Shown here in pieces: positions 17,501 to 37,834 of a stretch of 61,775 nt of DNA. The translations under genes were made by a program, and so were the position numbers. Each line of letters opens with the position of its first letter. The first letter of the stretch is position 1. The notes below the pieces were generated by a model. The model ran no database searches. It saw only the letters and a program-made list of their open reading frames with translations, and had not been told where the DNA came from. The stretch comes from Chlorobiota bacterium (GTDB lineage Bacteria; Bacteroidota; Ignavibacteria; OLB7). The stretch lies in NCBI GenBank assembly GCA_016788565.1, contig JAEUSP010000091.1, positions 1 through 61,775 of the forward strand. The letters run 5' to 3'.

Positions 17501-19213
17501 TACAATCCGCGCACGCATCCGGTAGCTGCGGCCAAACCGGAGCCGTGGAAGCGTCCCGGGGGCAACGCGCACCTGCTCCTCCAAGTCAAATCCAGGGACT
17601 TTTTTTGGCGGGTTCACCATTGGGGTCACGATTGGGTATTCCAGCGGTTTGCCGTCGTCGTCGTACTTCTTCTGGTCAATCACCCGTCCCGGGCGCGATG
17701 CCCCCAAACTCCACCCTTCCCACGTCACCAGCGTTTCATCCAGATAGAGGTCGTCCGAGCTTCCGTCGTGGGCGGTGGTTCCGCTGGTGGTTTTCACGAT
17801 GGCTTCGGCGTTGTCCTCAAATCCCAGCCCGGCGGCTGGCAGCCGTAGCCGTTCAATCCGCTGGCTAACGGAGTGCCATTGTTTGGAGACATCATCCCAA
17901 ATTTCAATCCGGTAGCCGCGCATCAGGTCATCGCCCCACATCGTTGGGGTGGTTCCAAGTTCCACCTGCTTGTTAATCAGGGCAACGGCATCCAAACGGC
18001 CAACCGTGCGGAGTGCGCGCTGGTGCCGGATTAATGCAAAGCCAGCGGTGCGAAGCGTTGCCAACCCTTCTTCGTCGGGGATCGCGTAGGAGTGATATTC
18101 TGGCTTCTGCAGCCGCTCCATGTTGTTGGCGAACTGCAGAGTTTTGTGGCTTGCGCTGTCGGGGTCAATCTGGATCACATCGAACATTTTGGGATTCTCC
18201 AGATGAAGCATCCCATCCCCCATTTCGCTATCGCCACTTTTTGGTTTTGGCAGGAATAGCTTCCCGCTGCTCTCATACTTCGTGATCGGGAACGTATCGG
18301 CGTTGAAGGCTGCCGGGTGGCCGCCGCCGCCCCACGGAGCCAGCAGCTGAATATCGCCGGTTGGGGAAGGGAGCGGTGCGGTGAGTTCAAAATCCAGCAC
18401 GATGCCAAGCCGGCGAAGCATCAGCGCGTAATCGCCAAGCCCAACAAGCATTTGGTGGAAATCAACATCGGGAAGTTTTGGGCGCGGCGGCGGAAGCAAA
18501 CCATTGGCCCTGGCTTTGGCGGGCGAGCGGTGATAGACTGGCGTATTCCCCGATGCCATCGGGTGATTTTCCGGGCGGTTGAAAAAGCGATGCGCCTGCA
18601 AGAACGCAAGCTGCGTCACCCCCTTGTTGCTGTTCGGAAGGCTGTAATCGCCGGGGGCATTGGAATTGACCGCACGGAGTTTTTTCCCGTTCACGGTTTT
18701 CTCCTTTGCCGTGGAAACAAAACCCCCTTGCTTTTTGCGGTCGTAATCGGAGACCGGGCCGACGGTATCAATGAAGGCTTTCAGCGCAGGGTTTTGGTTG
18801 CTGCCGCGGGCGTTGGGGCGTTCGGTTTGGGCATCGGCGGCAATCTGGCCGTAGGTGTCCCGCACAAAATCCACCACTTTTTTGATTGGGTAGCTGTGGA
18901 TAAACCGTGTGTGATAGTTCGGGAACGCAAACGGGCGAACGAACGTGTTGCTGGGGAAGAGCTTGCTCCACAACTCAGCATCGGGCGTAAGGCCAGCAGG
19001 CTTCAGCGGGATGGTGGTGGCCCCAACTTTCAGTTTGAAGGTCATCCCAACTAAGGTTTTTGGCCAATTCAGGAAATCGCCGAAATCGCCAAGCACCGGC
19101 TTGGGTGCGTTGGACATCAGCTGCGGTTGCACAAAAATGGAAACGCGCGGGTTTCCCGAATCCCCAAATCCGTTGGGAAGAACTGTCCATACGATGCGTT
19201 GTGAGATAGCCAT
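14513..19213 (-). CDS. giant protein of unknown function, 1566 residues, leaderless
   Basis: I do not recognise a named domain. The N-terminus (MAISQRIVWTVLPNGFG ... RVSIFVQPQL ... LNWPKTL) has no signal peptide or membrane helix. The body reads as a large mixed alpha/beta protein. Two glycine/serine-rich linkers stand out, one near residue 1140 (GGGGSSSSGGGSSPGGG) and one near 1520 (GGVAGGVAGGAAGG). Between them is a compact conserved-looking segment (YYPFIRLALCRFQP, HLSRVIQCDFVQIAPDR) that I associate with uncharacterised large proteins of other bacteria. It lies directly downstream of the Tat-motif 1942-residue gene, separated only by a duplicated repeat spacer, so the two are likely co-expressed. 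An enzymatic role cannot be assigned. Confidence 0.8.
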   Translation of the reverse strand: MAISQRIVWTVLPNGFGDSGNPRVSIFVQPQLMSNAPKPVLGDFGDFLNWPKTLVGMTFKLKVGATTIPLKPAGLTPDAELWSKLFPSNTFVRPFAFPNYHTRFIHSYPIKKVVDFVRDTYGQIAADAQTERPNARGSNQNPALKAFIDTVGPVSDYDRKKQGGFVSTAKEKTVNGKKLRAVNSNAPGDYSLPNSNKGVTQLAFLQAHRFFNRPENHPMASGNTPVYHRSPAKARANGLLPPPRPKLPDVDFHQMLVGLGDYALMLRRLGIVLDFELTAPLPSPTGDIQLLAPWGGGGHPAAFNADTFPITKYESSGKLFLPKPKSGDSEMGDGMLHLENPKMFDVIQIDPDSASHKTLQFANNMERLQKPEYHSYAIPDEEGLATLRTAGFALIRHQRALRTVGRLDAVALINKQVELGTTPTMWGDDLMRGYRIEIWDDVSKQWHSVSQRIERLRLPAAGLGFEDNAEAIVKTTSGTTAHDGSSDDLYLDETLVTWEGWSLGASRPGRVIDQKKYDDDGKPLEYPIVTPMVNPPKKVPGFDLEEQVRVAPGTLPRLRFGRSYRMRARIVDFAGNSIPLDLIPDNRASALDKFLRHEPLSSPTLLPNDVFREGESLEHLVIRSNFNKTAVEYSTLPYIIELLAGLDTRFKGLNGGIGFSYKGFNERHVLPPKVSVQMAELHGEFDKAMGPGGNPAKYYHIAAKEEGRIDDMEVHDLNGGMIDVSANVRLISAPEAIDPKTRPGTEASAKFRKLPSVPLKGAALSHGQYVINIGTTILLPYLPDPLARGVAFRGLPGATADGDIGAGAKIKKIPGSNDYVTLVSFGMAWPQTKPFMIRIVETTADTPPKWDGAVLTVFIHKATMARVHYSCWMEPGDTELMAIPAMITDGAKRDRAKKLGTLGSHWMLTPWRTMILTHAVQQPLLEPTFIKFDGTKPAIGSTHAIFRGNLSLSARSSGKVTLLAQWEEWVDDLTMNGPRRIKRQAHVLDQTVESWIDPRINTPEARDLPIPFPRQKPEDPATEWRHDFGDTHYRAVDYRMKATTRFREFMPIKLWSDPINQQQFDFWEPSTEAEQAELQKSIHRLGPKWPLDINNSARPDSPKVLYIIPTFGWERSEEPDLKMSRRCGGGLRVYLDRPWYSSGDGELLGVVINNSGAGGGGSSSSGGGSSPGGGMGMVEGLKDKIVKLPGGIGEMIISGSEGNLKGLVTEWGMDPIWKSAYPKPTPSLADFPLATETMTGLSLDELGSSSTTRVAVAGHPVEYDWQRQLWYCDIEVNTGESYYPFIRLALCRFQPKSLMNTHLSRVIQCDFVQIAPDRVAAVQLPEDKKVKVMVSGVAGENTFTVAGVDIYGHNDSSDKNPIAKHMNQSRRIVVTVEQGISGDTWTPVIVKDNQNQNVELAAELIPTKKVGDRIVWLNTLMLPEKPFSKGGSKRYRLNIREYELFEADPLPPDVIDIPEEQDPWVSPEEMRGYPSDVILPGGEVTAPGGEVTTPGGGAIKGGMKLNEGIKLDATTSGGVAGGVAGGAAGGTFPGGGEGGMQTMSYSTTIHHYRVIERIVYAETVEI

Positions 19214-19222
19214 ATCGGGAGT

Positions 19223-19520
19223 CGGTTGTCGGTTGTCGGGAATCGGGGGTCGGTTGTCAGTTGTCAGTTGTCGGGGGTCGGGAATCGGTTACTTAAGGGC
19301 GATCGATAATGTCAAGCGAAAGAAAGGTTCCCACGCACTTCTTCGCAACTGACCACTGACCACTGACTAACCTCGGTTATCGGTTGTCGGTTGTCGGGAA
19401 TCGGGGGTCGGTTGTCAGTTGTCGGGGGGCGGGAATCGGTTACTTAAGGGCGACCGATAATGTCAAGCGAAAGAAAGGTTCCCACGCACTTCTTCGCAAC
19501 TGACCACTGACTAACCTCGG
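19223..19520. repeat. 158-bp tandem duplication in spacer
   Basis: A block starting CGGTTGTCGGTTGTCGGG at 19223 recurs at 19381 (period 158). Each copy holds GTCGGTT-type heptamers, a unique core (ACTTAAGGGCGA...CGATAATGTCAAGCG) and a CCACTGA heptamer tail. The second copy lacks one heptamer. It fills the space between the two giant genes, and no gene is seen here. Confidence 0.85.
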
Positions 19521-32668: not shown

Positions 32669-33376
32669 CTACACCACCGTGTGATAGACTGCCTGCACGT
32701 CGTCATCTTCCTCCAGCTTGTCAATCAGTGCCATCACGGCTTCTTCCTGCTCCTCGTTCAGCTGCACAGTGGTGGTTGGGATGCGTTGGAATTCGGCACT
32801 GATAACGTTTACCCCCCGTTCCTCCAACGCCTTGTTCATCGCGCCAAAATCGCTGAACTGGGTGTAGATGTAAATCGCATCCTCCTCGGCTTGGATATCC
32901 TCGGCGCCGTAATCAATCAGCTCCAACTCCAACTCTTCAAGGTTCACTCCATCGGGGGCTATTTTGAAAACCCCTTTGCGGTCGAACATAAAATCAAGCG
33001 AACCGCTGGTTCCAAGCGAGCCGCCGGCCCGGGTCAGAAACGAACGGACGTTGGCGACGGTGCGGGTTGGGTTATCGGTGGCGCATTCCACCACAATGGC
33101 AACGCCGTGAGGGCCGTAGCCTTCGTAGGTGAGTTCGTGGAAATCGCTGGCCTCGCGCGAGGAAGCGCGCTTAATCGCCGACTCCACTTTATCCTTCGGC
33201 ATATTCGCCCCTTTGGCGTTCTGGATAGCAACGCGAAGGCGTGAGTTGGTTGCGGGGTCCGGCCCCGACTGCTTCACGGAAATGGCAATCTCGCGGCCAA
33301 TTCTGGTGAACATCTTCGACATTTTGTCCCAGCGCTTTTCCTTGCGTGCGCGGCGGAATTCAAATGCTCTGCCCAT
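32669..33376 (-). CDS. YebC/PmpR family protein
   Basis: 235 residues, the usual family size. The conserved N-terminus has GRAFEFRRARKEKRWDKMSK and F-T-RIGREI, with R-x-AIQNAKGANMPKDKVESAIKRA and YEGYGPHGVA following, then T-DNPTRTVANVRSFLTRAGGS. The family was long annotated as transcriptional regulators (PmpR), and more recently members have been linked to relief of ribosome stalling. It is monocistronic here and shares a terminator with the PAP2 gene. Confidence 0.93.
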   Translation of the reverse strand: MGRAFEFRRARKEKRWDKMSKMFTRIGREIAISVKQSGPDPATNSRLRVAIQNAKGANMPKDKVESAIKRASSREASDFHELTYEGYGPHGVAIVVECATDNPTRTVANVRSFLTRAGGSLGTSGSLDFMFDRKGVFKIAPDGVNLEELELELIDYGAEDIQAEEDAIYIYTQFSDFGAMNKALEERGVNVISAEFQRIPTTTVQLNEEQEEAVMALIDKLEEDDDVQAVYHTVV

Positions 33377-33550
33377 ATCTATACTGTTCTCTGATGTTAG
33401 TTGTTTGATGAACGTGTTGTTGAACCGGCCACAAAGTTATTGCCGCCACCACAATCCCCCCACACCATGCACGCCACAGAACGTGAAGAAAATGTAAATC
33501 GAAGAATGAGGGGTGAGATGGACGGAGGCAAATATGTCGGCCGGGGCCTT

Positions 33551-33966
33551 GTTGGGCATCATGACGGCCTCAGCTCTTGTAGGCGCAGCAACACGTTACG
33601 AACAGAACCGTCTTCGATAACCCCCCCCCCCCAGTGTCCCTCGCAGAAGCGCTCGCCGCGCGCGCACCAAGTGAGCATAGTTTTGATCTGCTGCAGTGTT
33701 GCGCGGGCCACTCGTTCTGGGTCGTAGATGACCTCTCCGATGTTCTTTGATATGTAGTTGTAGTCCATCCAGCACTCTTTCGAAGCGAAGCCAAAGAACT
33801 GGTGTACGGCCTCCTCGTACTCAGCCCAAGGCATGACAAACACGCCTTCTTCCACCTTGTCACCACCACCCCAGCGGGCAATAGGCTTGAAGCCATCGGC
33901 ATAGAGAATTGGCAGGTAGGCTAGTAGCTCGTCGAAATCGGCGGACGTGGGTTCAACTGTTTTCAT
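33551..33966 (-). mobile_element. putative integron gene cassette (partial)
   Basis: On the minus strand the DUF6508 gene starts about 40 bases after an attC-like site (34093-34005). One base after its stop codon it meets GCCCAAC (33557-33551), a perfect match to the attC R'' box RYYYAAC, continuing AAGGCCCCGGCC as attC sites commonly do. The partner GTTRRRY box expected 60-130 bases further on was not found, so the cassette's own attC looks truncated. Confidence 0.5.
33559..33966 (-). CDS. DUF6508 domain protein
   Basis: About 135 residues, unknown function. The DUF6508 pattern is clear: F-x-LLAYLPILYADGF near the start, MPWAEYEEAVHQFFGFA, W-DYNYIS, and the C-terminal ATLQQIKTMLTWCARGERF followed by C-GHW and IEDG. 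The ATG at 33966 is preferred over an in-frame TTG at 33975. A run of 12 G (C at 33621-33632) lies inside the CEGHW...IEDG motif. A one-base slip there would change the last 20 or so residues. attC-like sequences flank the gene, so it appears to be an acquired cassette. Confidence 0.8.
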   Translation of the reverse strand: MKTVEPTSADFDELLAYLPILYADGFKPIARWGGGDKVEEGVFVMPWAEYEEAVHQFFGFASKECWMDYNYISKNIGEVIYDPERVARATLQQIKTMLTWCARGERFCEGHWGGGVIEDGSVRNVLLRLQELRPS

Positions 33967-34004
33967 GATGCCCAAGTAGTTCGTAAAACCCCAAACTCCA
34001 TCCA

Positions 34005-34093
34005 GCCTAACACGCTGGACTGCGAACTTGGGAAGTACGCTGCGCTTCTGAAATATAAAACTTTGCTCCCAAGTACGCCGGCTGTTGTTAGGA
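34005..34093 (-). other. attC-like integron recombination site
   Basis: Read on the minus strand it begins TCCTAAC and ends GTTAGGC, a perfect match to the R' consensus GTTRRRY and one base off RYYYAAC at the other end. Inner boxes ACTTGGGA and TCCCAAGT are inverted (34074-34067 and 34033-34026 on the plus numbering). The outer pair CCTAACA/TGTTAGG spans 87 bases. Size, imperfect pairing and position just before a small gene fit attC. No intI gene is in the window. Confidence 0.55.
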
Positions 34094-34212
34094 GAAGTCG
34101 GCCAGTATTCACCACCATAGTGAACCTTGCGCTGCGGTACGCCCTGACTTGCGCCCAGAGCCTTCCCCGCGAGGAAAGGATCCCCACGATGACGTGCTAA
34201 AAGAATTTACCG

Positions 34213-37200
34213 CTACCGCGCCACCACAATCCGCTGCGCGGCCACGCCATGCGCCGTTTGCAGCAGCAGCTGATACGCCCCCGAAGCGATTCTCCCAAGC
34301 TCTATTCTTACCCGCTCAACATGCTCGGCGGCGGCGGTTCCGGTAAGGGTGATTGGGATTGGATGGAGCACCTGCTTCCCACTCATATCCACCACCAGAA
34401 GCTGGGCGTTCAGGTTGCCAGTGCCGCGCACGCTGATGGCAACCTCAGCCGCATCCCGCACCGGATTCCCGGCAACAGGAAGCAGCATTGCCGTTACTCC
34501 ACCAGCCGTGATCGCCCCTTCCTGAACGCCGCTGACGGTTGGCCCGTAGCCGATAAGTGTGAAGTTGGTTGGTGAGGCAAGCCCGTTGTGCGTCAGGCGA
34601 AGCTGGGCGATATGCCGGCGGTCGGCATCCGGCGTGTAGCGGATTGGCAGGCCAACCGTTTGCCCCGGCGGAATCACCAGCGGAAGCGTTGGCGGCGCGA
34701 CGATTGCAAACACCGTGGCATCGTTGCCGGCGATACTCACTGCCGTGATCGTCAGCGGATAATCGCCGCTGTTGGTGATGCTGAACGTTGAATCGTGCAT
34801 GGCCTGAACCGCTGTTCGGGGGAAGATCAGCGTGTCGCGGGGGGCATCGGCAATGCCGGCAACGCCGGTGCCGTACACCGCAAATTCGCTGAAGCCTGCG
34901 ATGTCGTCGTGCAGCAGCCGGATGGTGGAAGAATACCGCCGCCGCTCCTGCGGGTCGAACCGCACACGCAGCTTGAAGGTTGTCCCCGGCACCACCGTGG
35001 TGCTTCGTGCGCCGGAGTAGCGCAGCCGCGCCGAATCGGCTCCGGTGGTAACGATGTCGCTAATCCGCAACGTGTCGCTGCCATTGTTTTTCAGCACCAC
35101 GGTATCCACCAGCGTGGTTGCGCCAACCCTCCGTTCTTTCACATCAATCTCCGCCAACAACTCCTGGGCCACCGATTGCCCTGCGATTCCGTTCAGCTGG
35201 ATTCCCAGCGGCGAGCCAGGGGCGTTGCTTGCCAGCACCAGCAGCGCGTTCCGGTTCCCAGTGGTGACGGTTGGGTTGAACCGCAGCGTCATTTGGTGCG
35301 TTCCCCCTTTGTTCACCGTGAAGGGTCCGCCACCGCTCACCACGCTGAACTCCGTTTGGTGAGTCCCGCTGATTGCCGACGAACTGACGTTCAGCACCGC
35401 ACTCCCTGGGTTGGTGATGGTGACGGTTTGCTCCACCGGTTTGCCGGGCTGTGTGGTTCCAAAGCTGACGGGATTTGGCGCGAAGCTCAATGCGGCCTGC
35501 GGCGATCCAGCGGTGACGGTGGTGTAAACCGCGGTCATCCAGATGGTAACGCCCGCGCCGCCGGGAACTCCATCGGGGAAATTTTTCCAGCCGCTTGCGG
35601 TTTTGTAGCTGCTGCGGTTTTGGGTGGGGGTTCCGTCATCGGTTGGGATCATCACCATCCCCAAGTGATTGGTCAGGACAATGTGGAAATCCTCCCCCGC
35701 GCTGAAGTTCACCGGCGCGCCAATCCCCCGCAGCCAAATCTCATTTTCTTGGTTGGTCATCAGATACTTGTAGGGGATCGTCACCGACCCCAGCAGCGCG
35801 TTCGGGATACCCGCCACGCTCCCCGCTTTGTTGGAATAGACCGACACCGTGAGCGATCCCCCAACAGGCATCACCGACGGTGCCAAAAGCAGCAGTTTTA
35901 TCCCAACCAGCGAACCGTTGGAGGGGGCGGTGAATCGGCTGGCGTAGCCGGTGATATCGGTCCCGGCAACCGGCAACTCCAAAGAACTTCCCAGCCCCTC
36001 TTGGTAGTGGGCAACATCCGTCACCAAGGTGGATTGGTTGGTGAGAATGGCGACGTTCTTGGTTGTGTCGCCAGCCTGGACCCTGACCACGGTGAAGTCG
36101 TTCCAATTATCCAGCAGAAGATCGGCGGATTCCCCGGGGTTGTTGTACCACTCCATCGCGGTGTTGGTGTTGATTGGCGTGGAGTAGCTGGCAATGGAGG
36201 ACCCCTGCTTAAACGCCTCAATCACCGGCTCGATCCGCACGGCGTAGTATCCCGGCGGAAGCCCCGAAATCGTAAACGTCCCGTTGGCCGCCGGTGGATT
36301 TTCGAACGCTGGGTGGCCGCCGGAGTAGTAATCAACAATCGTGCTGTAGGCGTTGCCGGTTGCGGTATCTACGGCAATCACGCAAACGCCGCTCACCTTT
36401 GCGTTGCCACCGGTCCGCACCGTGCCGGAGATAAAGCCAACGCTGGCCAGATAGGTGGGGGTTGGATAGAGGAGCGAGACGGTTGCCACATCTTCTGCTT
36501 CCAGAGTTTTTTGCTCCAGAGATTCGATGGAGGGATACATGGTGGCATAGCCGGCGTGCATGGCGTTTTGGGCGTGGGCCAAGCCAAGAAAGTGCCCAGC
36601 TTCGTGAGTGATAACCGCCTTGAAGCGATCCTCATCTTCTGCCGACCCGGTTCCGCTCAGGTGGCCGTTGATGATAACGAAGCCTTCGTACAAATCGGTG
36701 CCAATCCCAACCGAAGCCGCAAAGCCATACACCACATTTTTTGCGCCAACGCCAATTCGGGAATCGGTGATGGAGCCGTCGTTGTCGAACACCACGGGAT
36801 TGATCCCATCGTTGAACTGACCCACGCCCGAGATGTAGGGGTCGGTTGCCGAGGTGACGTTGTTGGCCAGCGTCCCGCCGTTCAGGATTGTTAGCGAGGC
36901 AGTTGGCACATTATCCCACTGCTGGAATGCGTAATCAGCAATGGCGCGCCCAGCCACGTTGCTGAACCGCCCCAACGTTCCCAAGTCAATTTTATACACG
37001 ATTGGCAACGCCGATGCAGGGTAGGTGTTTGACCTTGTTCCCGTTGCCCCCAACGGCCCGCCAGCCGTTGCCGTGCCAACCGCCGACAACAGCACCAGCA
37101 AGAACACAAGAAGTGAAGAATATCGAACGGAACAGAATCCTCCTCCCCCTCCCCTTCTTTGCAACTGACCACTGACTACTGACCACCGTCCAACGGACTG

Positions 37201-37266
37201 CCCCCCCTCTCTTCCCTGCAACTGACCACTGACTACTGACCACTGACTAATGACTCCCCTTTTCAT
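34213..37266 (-). CDS. secreted matrixin-like metalloprotease with type IX sorting domain
   Basis: About 1017 residues. The zinc-binding motif HEAGHFLGLAH and a downstream Met-turn (ATMYPS) mark a metzincin protease domain at roughly 70-290. A carboxypeptidase-regulatory-like segment follows (ISGTVRTGGNAKVSGV...GTFTISGLPPGYYAV). Then come two or three ASPM/SPD-2/Hydin-like beta modules (SFGTTQPGKPVEQTVTITN). The C-terminal 90 residues resemble the type A T9SS sorting domain (AGNPVRD...VVDMSGKQV...G-YQLLLQT-HGVAAQRIVV). The ATG at 37266 follows the upstream stop by one base (TAA-G-ATG). The first 50 codons translate heptamer repeat DNA (WSVVSGQLQ twice) before the signal peptide (SLLVFLLVLLSAVGTATAG), so the start region may be damaged. 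Confidence 0.85.
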   Translation of the reverse strand: MKRGVISQWSVVSGQLQGREGGQSVGRWSVVSGQLQRRGGGGGFCSVRYSSLLVFLLVLLSAVGTATAGGPLGATGTRSNTYPASALPIVYKIDLGTLGRFSNVAGRAIADYAFQQWDNVPTASLTILNGGTLANNVTSATDPYISGVGQFNDGINPVVFDNDGSITDSRIGVGAKNVVYGFAASVGIGTDLYEGFVIINGHLSGTGSAEDEDRFKAVITHEAGHFLGLAHAQNAMHAGYATMYPSIESLEQKTLEAEDVATVSLLYPTPTYLASVGFISGTVRTGGNAKVSGVCVIAVDTATGNAYSTIVDYYSGGHPAFENPPAANGTFTISGLPPGYYAVRIEPVIEAFKQGSSIASYSTPINTNTAMEWYNNPGESADLLLDNWNDFTVVRVQAGDTTKNVAILTNQSTLVTDVAHYQEGLGSSLELPVAGTDITGYASRFTAPSNGSLVGIKLLLLAPSVMPVGGSLTVSVYSNKAGSVAGIPNALLGSVTIPYKYLMTNQENEIWLRGIGAPVNFSAGEDFHIVLTNHLGMVMIPTDDGTPTQNRSSYKTASGWKNFPDGVPGGAGVTIWMTAVYTTVTAGSPQAALSFAPNPVSFGTTQPGKPVEQTVTITNPGSAVLNVSSSAISGTHQTEFSVVSGGGPFTVNKGGTHQMTLRFNPTVTTGNRNALLVLASNAPGSPLGIQLNGIAGQSVAQELLAEIDVKERRVGATTLVDTVVLKNNGSDTLRISDIVTTGADSARLRYSGARSTTVVPGTTFKLRVRFDPQERRRYSSTIRLLHDDIAGFSEFAVYGTGVAGIADAPRDTLIFPRTAVQAMHDSTFSITNSGDYPLTITAVSIAGNDATVFAIVAPPTLPLVIPPGQTVGLPIRYTPDADRRHIAQLRLTHNGLASPTNFTLIGYGPTVSGVQEGAITAGGVTAMLLPVAGNPVRDAAEVAISVRGTGNLNAQLLVVDMSGKQVLHPIPITLTGTAAAEHVERVRIELGRIASGAYQLLLQTAHGVAAQRIVVAR
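37158..37256. repeat. heptamer arrays inside the 5' end of the metalloprotease gene
   Basis: Two blocks each starting TGCAACTGACCACTGACTAC (from about 37158 and 37217) and made of CACTGAC/TACTGAC 7-mers. They lie between the ATG at 37266 and the signal-peptide codons. Confidence 0.8.
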
Positions 37267-37267
37267 C

Positions 37268-37834
37268 TTACTCACCCCCCTTCTGAATATCCCGCACCAA
37301 CGCGCTGAACGTGGCCACAGGAATTGAAACGGTGGTGGTAGTTGCGGCGGCAATCCCATACTTTTTCAGCAATGCCGGAATCTGCTTCAGGCTGGCGGCG
37401 GTGATGCCGGTCACCATTCCATTGCTCACCGTCCAAGCCGCTTGCGACAACCCGACCGGGCTGGTAAATCCAAGATCGCTGACGGGATAGAGCATCACCA
37501 TCACCCGCTCCCCTTTTTGGAAATAGCGCAGATGCGGGATCAGCAGCGTCCGCCCGTTCCAGCGCCCGCCAAATTGCTTGATGGTGAGCGTCATGGAGTT
37601 CGCCCCCTTCACGTTCGCCTCCACAGTGAAGGTGGTGTGGGTGACGATGTCGCCCCGTTGGTCCAGCCCGCTGCGGACCTGGGTGACGCGCCCGGCAAAA
37701 ATCGTTTCGGCAGATTGGATCATCTCCCGTAACTCTATTGTTCGCACCTGTGCTTGCGCGTGCGGCGGGGTGCTGGCAACCCAGCAAAGCAGCCCGCAGA
37801 AAAGAAGCCAATACCAGCGGTTCCATTGCCTCAT
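37268..37834 (-). CDS. exported protein of unknown function
   Basis: About 188 residues from the ATG at 37834. The signal peptide MRQWNRWYWLLFCGLLCWVA ends near PPHAQAQ. The mature part has a beta-rich core (AETIFAGRVTQVRSG, THTTFTVEANVKGAN, MTLTIKQFGG, HLRYFQKGERVMVMLYP) that looks like a small secreted beta-sandwich. I do not recognise a family with confidence. It is translationally coupled to the metalloprotease (TAA-G-ATG), which suggests a partner, propeptide-like inhibitor or shared export fate. Confidence 0.75.
   Translation of the reverse strand: MRQWNRWYWLLFCGLLCWVASTPPHAQAQVRTIELREMIQSAETIFAGRVTQVRSGLDQRGDIVTHTTFTVEANVKGANSMTLTIKQFGGRWNGRTLLIPHLRYFQKGERVMVMLYPVSDLGFTSPVGLSQAAWTVSNGMVTGITAASLKQIPALLKKYGIAAATTTTVSIPVATFSALVRDIQKGGE

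Follow-up and report, generated by a model that had tools for sequence, protein, structure and literature searches.

A probably horizontally acquired DUF6508 gene with integron-core-like motifs at both ends in a Chlorobiota bacterium

Gene cassettes can integrate at non-canonical (attG) sites. The term attG appears in PMC12901181. The attC site is defined by features of its folded strand, namely R and L boxes, an unpaired central spacer and extrahelical bases (PMC2727003), and IntegronFinder 2 reports a CALIN at two or more sites to limit false positives, although single sites can be true (PMC9024848). We analysed a window of 61,775 nucleotides from a Chlorobiota bacterium, in which an earlier note had described a lone captured integron cassette carrying a DUF6508 gene. 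With an integron cassette or a single-attC CALIN the locus shares a short gene without obvious promoter, core-like 7-mers near both ends and a start codon near a TTRRRY motif, and with attG-integrated cassettes it shares a solitary gene, set in a site that is otherwise intact and has an empty counterpart. It differs from the former in lacking an array, a genomic integrase and an attC that shows R and L boxes, and from the latter, which require an attC on the 3′ side, in having a half-site at most. The locus falls short of both the folded-strand definition of attC (PMC2727003) and the CALIN criterion (PMC9024848). We find it probable that the gene is an ordinary horizontally acquired one, that the core-like motifs beside it reflect chance plus coding sequence, and that the palindrome upstream is something other than an attC site (Table 1).

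Table 1. Features of the DUF6508 locus; positions are those of the window.
Feature	Position	Strand	Remark
Matrixin-like secreted protein gene, 1048 aa, left neighbour	34213..37359	(-)	stop at 34215-34213; same place in G001
Imperfect palindrome TCCTAAC...GTTAGGC, 89 nt, claimed attC	34005..34093	(-)	not called by the attC model
Left arm of 13-bp perfect inverted repeat, TTGGGCATCATGA	33963..33975	(-)	across start codon
DUF6508 gene, 135 aa	33559..33966	(-)	ATG 33966, TGA 33561-33559; PF20118 match
Poly-G tract, 12 G, within DUF6508 gene	33621..33632	(-)	one codon more than homologues
Right arm of 13-bp perfect inverted repeat, TCATGATGCCCAA	33552..33564	(-)	across stop codon
GCCCAACAAGGCCCCGGCCGACA, claimed truncated attC half-site, alternatively first codons of ORF MMPNKAPAD...	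33535..33557	(-)	overlaps DUF6508 stop
Stretch absent or unalignable in sister genome G001	33499..34212		left edge blurred, ~34212 to ~34175
yebC/TACO1 gene, right neighbour	32669..33376	(-)	start 33376; same place in G001

The neighbours are ordinary chromosomal genes, as had been stated before, encoding a host-type YebC and a matrixin-like secreted protein. No gene is recognisable in the roughly 240 nt that separate the stop codon of the latter gene from the DUF6508 ORF and include the palindrome, and neither a scan of the locus for promoters and terminators nor an Rfam search gave a match. The ORF shows a full-length match to DUF6508 (PF20118; E=3.2e-23, 82.4 bits with a curated cutoff of 23.6, positions 2-127 of 129) and keeps the RGERFCEGHW motif, differing from the family by one additional codon at the 12-G tract. 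Its ATG is the start that agrees with the homologue alignment, and a TTG at 33975 is a possible alternative. The nearest relatives found for the protein are 45-49% identical to it (Desulfobacteraceae, Spirochaeta and Marinobacter). The protein structure model is confident (pLDDT 83), but its comparison with the PDB yielded no confident structural match, so that we draw no functional conclusion from the fold. PADLOC found nothing and PHROGs nothing significant; DUF6508 was not found in phages and viral contigs, and the literature searched did not mention it.

In the sole same-genus genome compared (G001), YebC and the metalloprotease are 97% and 85% identical, respectively, to their counterparts here and stand in the same order, no DUF6508 gene was found, and the distance from the metalloprotease gene to yebC is 170 nt, compared with 836 nt here (about 666 nt shorter). 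The empty site that the earlier note had proposed to look for between these two genes is therefore present in this one relative, with conserved flanks, as is expected of a horizontally acquired insertion. By alignment the extra DNA runs from ~34212/34175 to 33499, with edges blurred by divergence of the intergenic DNA. The distribution of the gene is patchy: a protein search of 395 genomes of the phylum matched at 1e-8 in its own genome only, the DUF6508 family model matched 11 of the 395, and the gene was absent from three other family members compared. One class member (G024) carries a different DUF6508 gene, without attC nearby. As the site in G001 is empty and the gene is sparse in the phylum, we infer that the event was a gain and not a loss in the sister; loss in G001 following an older gain is possible. 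A single accessory DUF6508 gene would then have been gained horizontally between the secreted metalloprotease gene and yebC, where it lies with ~200 nt of upstream and ~50 nt of downstream DNA, probably through illegitimate or homologous recombination. Neither flank of the gene within the insert had relatives among plasmids or in Pfam. A perfect 14-bp direct repeat, CGCCACCACAATCC, brackets the stretch missing in G001 (33444-33457 and 34219-34232, 775 nt apart) and could have mediated a deletion or an insertion; both of its positions are present in G001, in diverged form.

Another possibility, which we think unlikely, is that a genuine integron cassette, TTGGGCATCATG...gene...TCATGATGCCCAAC with a truncated attC and its boundary at 33975, integrated directly in the chromosome outside an integron and has since decayed. 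The gene ends lend it some appeal. A perfect 13-bp inverted repeat, TTGGGCATCATGA/TCATGATGCCCAA, has its arms over the start and stop codons of the DUF6508 gene, and among the 215 ORFs of the window the next best repeat across start and stop spans 9 bp; some 13-bp inverted repeat is contained in 6 of 153 equal-sized stretches. Part of the repeat is to be expected, because its core, TCATGA, is self-complementary and often occurs where start and stop codons overlap. Its outer six bases, TTGGGC (33975), are perfectly complementary to GCCCAA, as in a cassette start and R′′, yet the base preceding TTGGGC is C and not the G of a cassette start of the TTRRRY type. The context TTRRRYATCATG also occurs where the aadA5 and dfrB4 cassettes begin (L061 and L060, respectively), real cassettes in these two records have 5′ ends similar to TTGGGCATCATG, and a cassette in a relative (L042) likewise extends the R-box palindrome outward. 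The empty sister site would suit a cassette too, and 15 of the 61 genomes of the class have an IntI that exceeds the curated cutoff. If a cassette exists, TTGGGC (33975) makes a better 5′ boundary for it than GTTAGGC (34011). The gene would then be a rare cassette-borne DUF6508 in a genome without detectable integron, and lone cassettes outside integrons, if real, would be evidence of cassettes seeding the chromosomes of integron-free lineages, a topic of current interest.

The letters on which the claim of a cassette had been built are all there: on the minus strand the palindrome opens with TCCTAAC at 34093 and ends with GTTAGGC (34011-34005), the small gene follows, and GCCCAAC (33557-33551) stands one base beyond its TGA, where GCCCAACAAGGC begins. 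The arrangement turned out not to be rare, with two instances in the window under a loose definition. We built an attC covariance model from 18 attC sites, taken from integrons of class relatives and from plasmid records, and shortened their variable loops in the alignment; the model is small and purpose-built and may miss atypical attC sites. It gave up to 64 bits on its training sites and 44 to 18 bits on five held-out sites (L062 5223, L045 6887, L058 8093, L059 4527 and L061 5934). The palindrome was not among the matches of a default search of the window, and with all filters off it obtained 7.5 and 6.8 bits, where the outer R boxes alone aligned; likeness to an attC site directly 5′ of a cassette was not confirmed beyond the outer 7-mers. 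A covariance-model search of the whole 4.58-Mb genome found no convincing site (best 15.2 bits, E=9). Lack of a covariance match was one of the two outcomes that the earlier note had itself named as speaking against a cassette. GTTAGGC at 34011 pairs with R′′ at 6 of 7 positions, and a half-site weight matrix placed the R′′ side of the palindrome 801st in the window. Such palindromes arose at just 0.05 per window in dinucleotide shuffles, a background that is understated, because two palindromes of the same or higher score sit inside other coding genes of the window. The bottom strand folds as a single hairpin, with equal stability in 7 of 200 shuffles, and a BLAST search for the palindrome in its own genome yielded two matches, both short and weak, of which one lies in an unrelated coding gene.

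On the 3′ side of the gene, where a complete attC would show R′′, L′′, L′ and R′, a central spacer and extrahelical bases, positions 33557-33535 hold an R′′-like 7-mer and a weak L′′-like stretch only, and no L′ or R′ was found downstream. The R′′-L′′ spacing is 7 as opposed to the expected 8-9, and the weight matrix ranks GCCCAACAAGGC... 74th in the window, both of which argue against a decayed cassette. In viral contigs, GCCCAACAAGGC followed by RGCCGAC had 12 exact matches, of which the model identifies two as attC sites; it gave no match in the remaining ten, and several of these translate as coding sequence of the type Pro-Asn-Lys-Ala-x-Ala-Asp. Here these letters also translate as MMPNKAPADIFASVHL..., from an ATG sharing bases with the DUF6508 stop (ATGA) into host sequence, and this coding reading is equally good as the attC reading. 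The same kind of overlap joins DUF6508 to the next gene in two Desulfobacteraceae contigs. The truncated attC that had been assigned to the gene thus has a coding alternative, and we infer the latter: GCCCAACAAGGCC would be the beginning of a truncated downstream ORF overlapping the DUF6508 stop. The locus calls for caution, as core-like 7-mers and a small gene are insufficient for a cassette call, and GCCCAACAAGGC...GCCGAC also resembles ordinary coding sequence, such as that for Pro-Asn-Lys-Ala-x-Ala-Asp.

The genomic context likewise argues against a decayed cassette. The locus bears no integrase, in agreement with the previous description, and a family-model search for the integron integrase in the whole genome (G000) found only tyrosine recombinases below the cutoff, so that the intI that was to be sought elsewhere did not turn up. 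Neither an IntI nor a cluster of at least two attC sites, by which a complete integron or a CALIN is recognised, was found genome-wide, and 15 other DUF6508 loci showed no attC and no cassette context. What stands of the lone captured cassette is a lone, apparently acquired gene in a host-like setting, with an empty site and no integrase; the integron label is either mistaken or unproven. A same-family genome has an integron integrase over the cutoff (G002:C71:92490-93428, 326 bits), with no attC found within 18 kb around it. Some observations count against ordinary acquisition, the reading that we prefer: it leaves the unusual 13-bp repeat over the start and stop codons unexplained, TTGGGCATCATG is like real cassette 5′ ends, the bottom strand of the palindrome makes one hairpin, and neither the DNA upstream nor the truncated downstream ORF has recognisable relatives.

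It is improbable, in our view, that the genus inherited the gene at this place from its ancestor and G001 lost it by deletion, with an intergenic region that is merely fast-evolving. A single congeneric genome with diverged intergenic flanks would allow it, as would the G+C content of the stretch (55.6%), which is near that of the window (57.6%), but the gene is missing from the three other family members and from nearly the whole phylum, so that a gain is required at some point. There is very little probability that the gene is carried by an invertible segment or by a 424-bp element bounded by 13-bp terminal inverted repeats, despite the perfect repeat at both gene ends, since the sequence shows no target-site duplication, the exact 13-mer has no other copy in the genome, the paired 13-mers occur in none of the viral contigs, and the stretch missing in G001 exceeds 424 bp.

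Relatives of the gene offer clues to its role. In a class relative (L089 1459-2838) DUF6508 is fused with an ADP-ribosylglycohydrolase domain (PF03747, E=3e-76), and in two Desulfobacteraceae contigs (L019 1930-3095 and L021 1-1211) it overlaps the co-directional next gene by 4 nt (ATGA). From its sequence we take this next gene to be of HNH type in both contigs, and the two overlapping genes are a candidate for a conserved pair. Together, the overlap and the fusion suggest, as a lead only, that DUF6508 may have an accessory role, possibly defence- or nucleotide-related. At the 12-G tract (33621-33632) a shift of 1-2 bases would swap the C-terminus of the protein. G tracts of at least 11 number roughly 17 in the genome, by our estimate about twice as many as by chance, and the assembly also contains an unbroken 82-nt G run (G000:C37:50664-50745), possibly a sequencing artefact. 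Elsewhere in the window, at 19213-19500 between two large genes, lie short direct repeats that are nearly identical (TCGGTTGTCGGGAATCGGGGG and neighbours).
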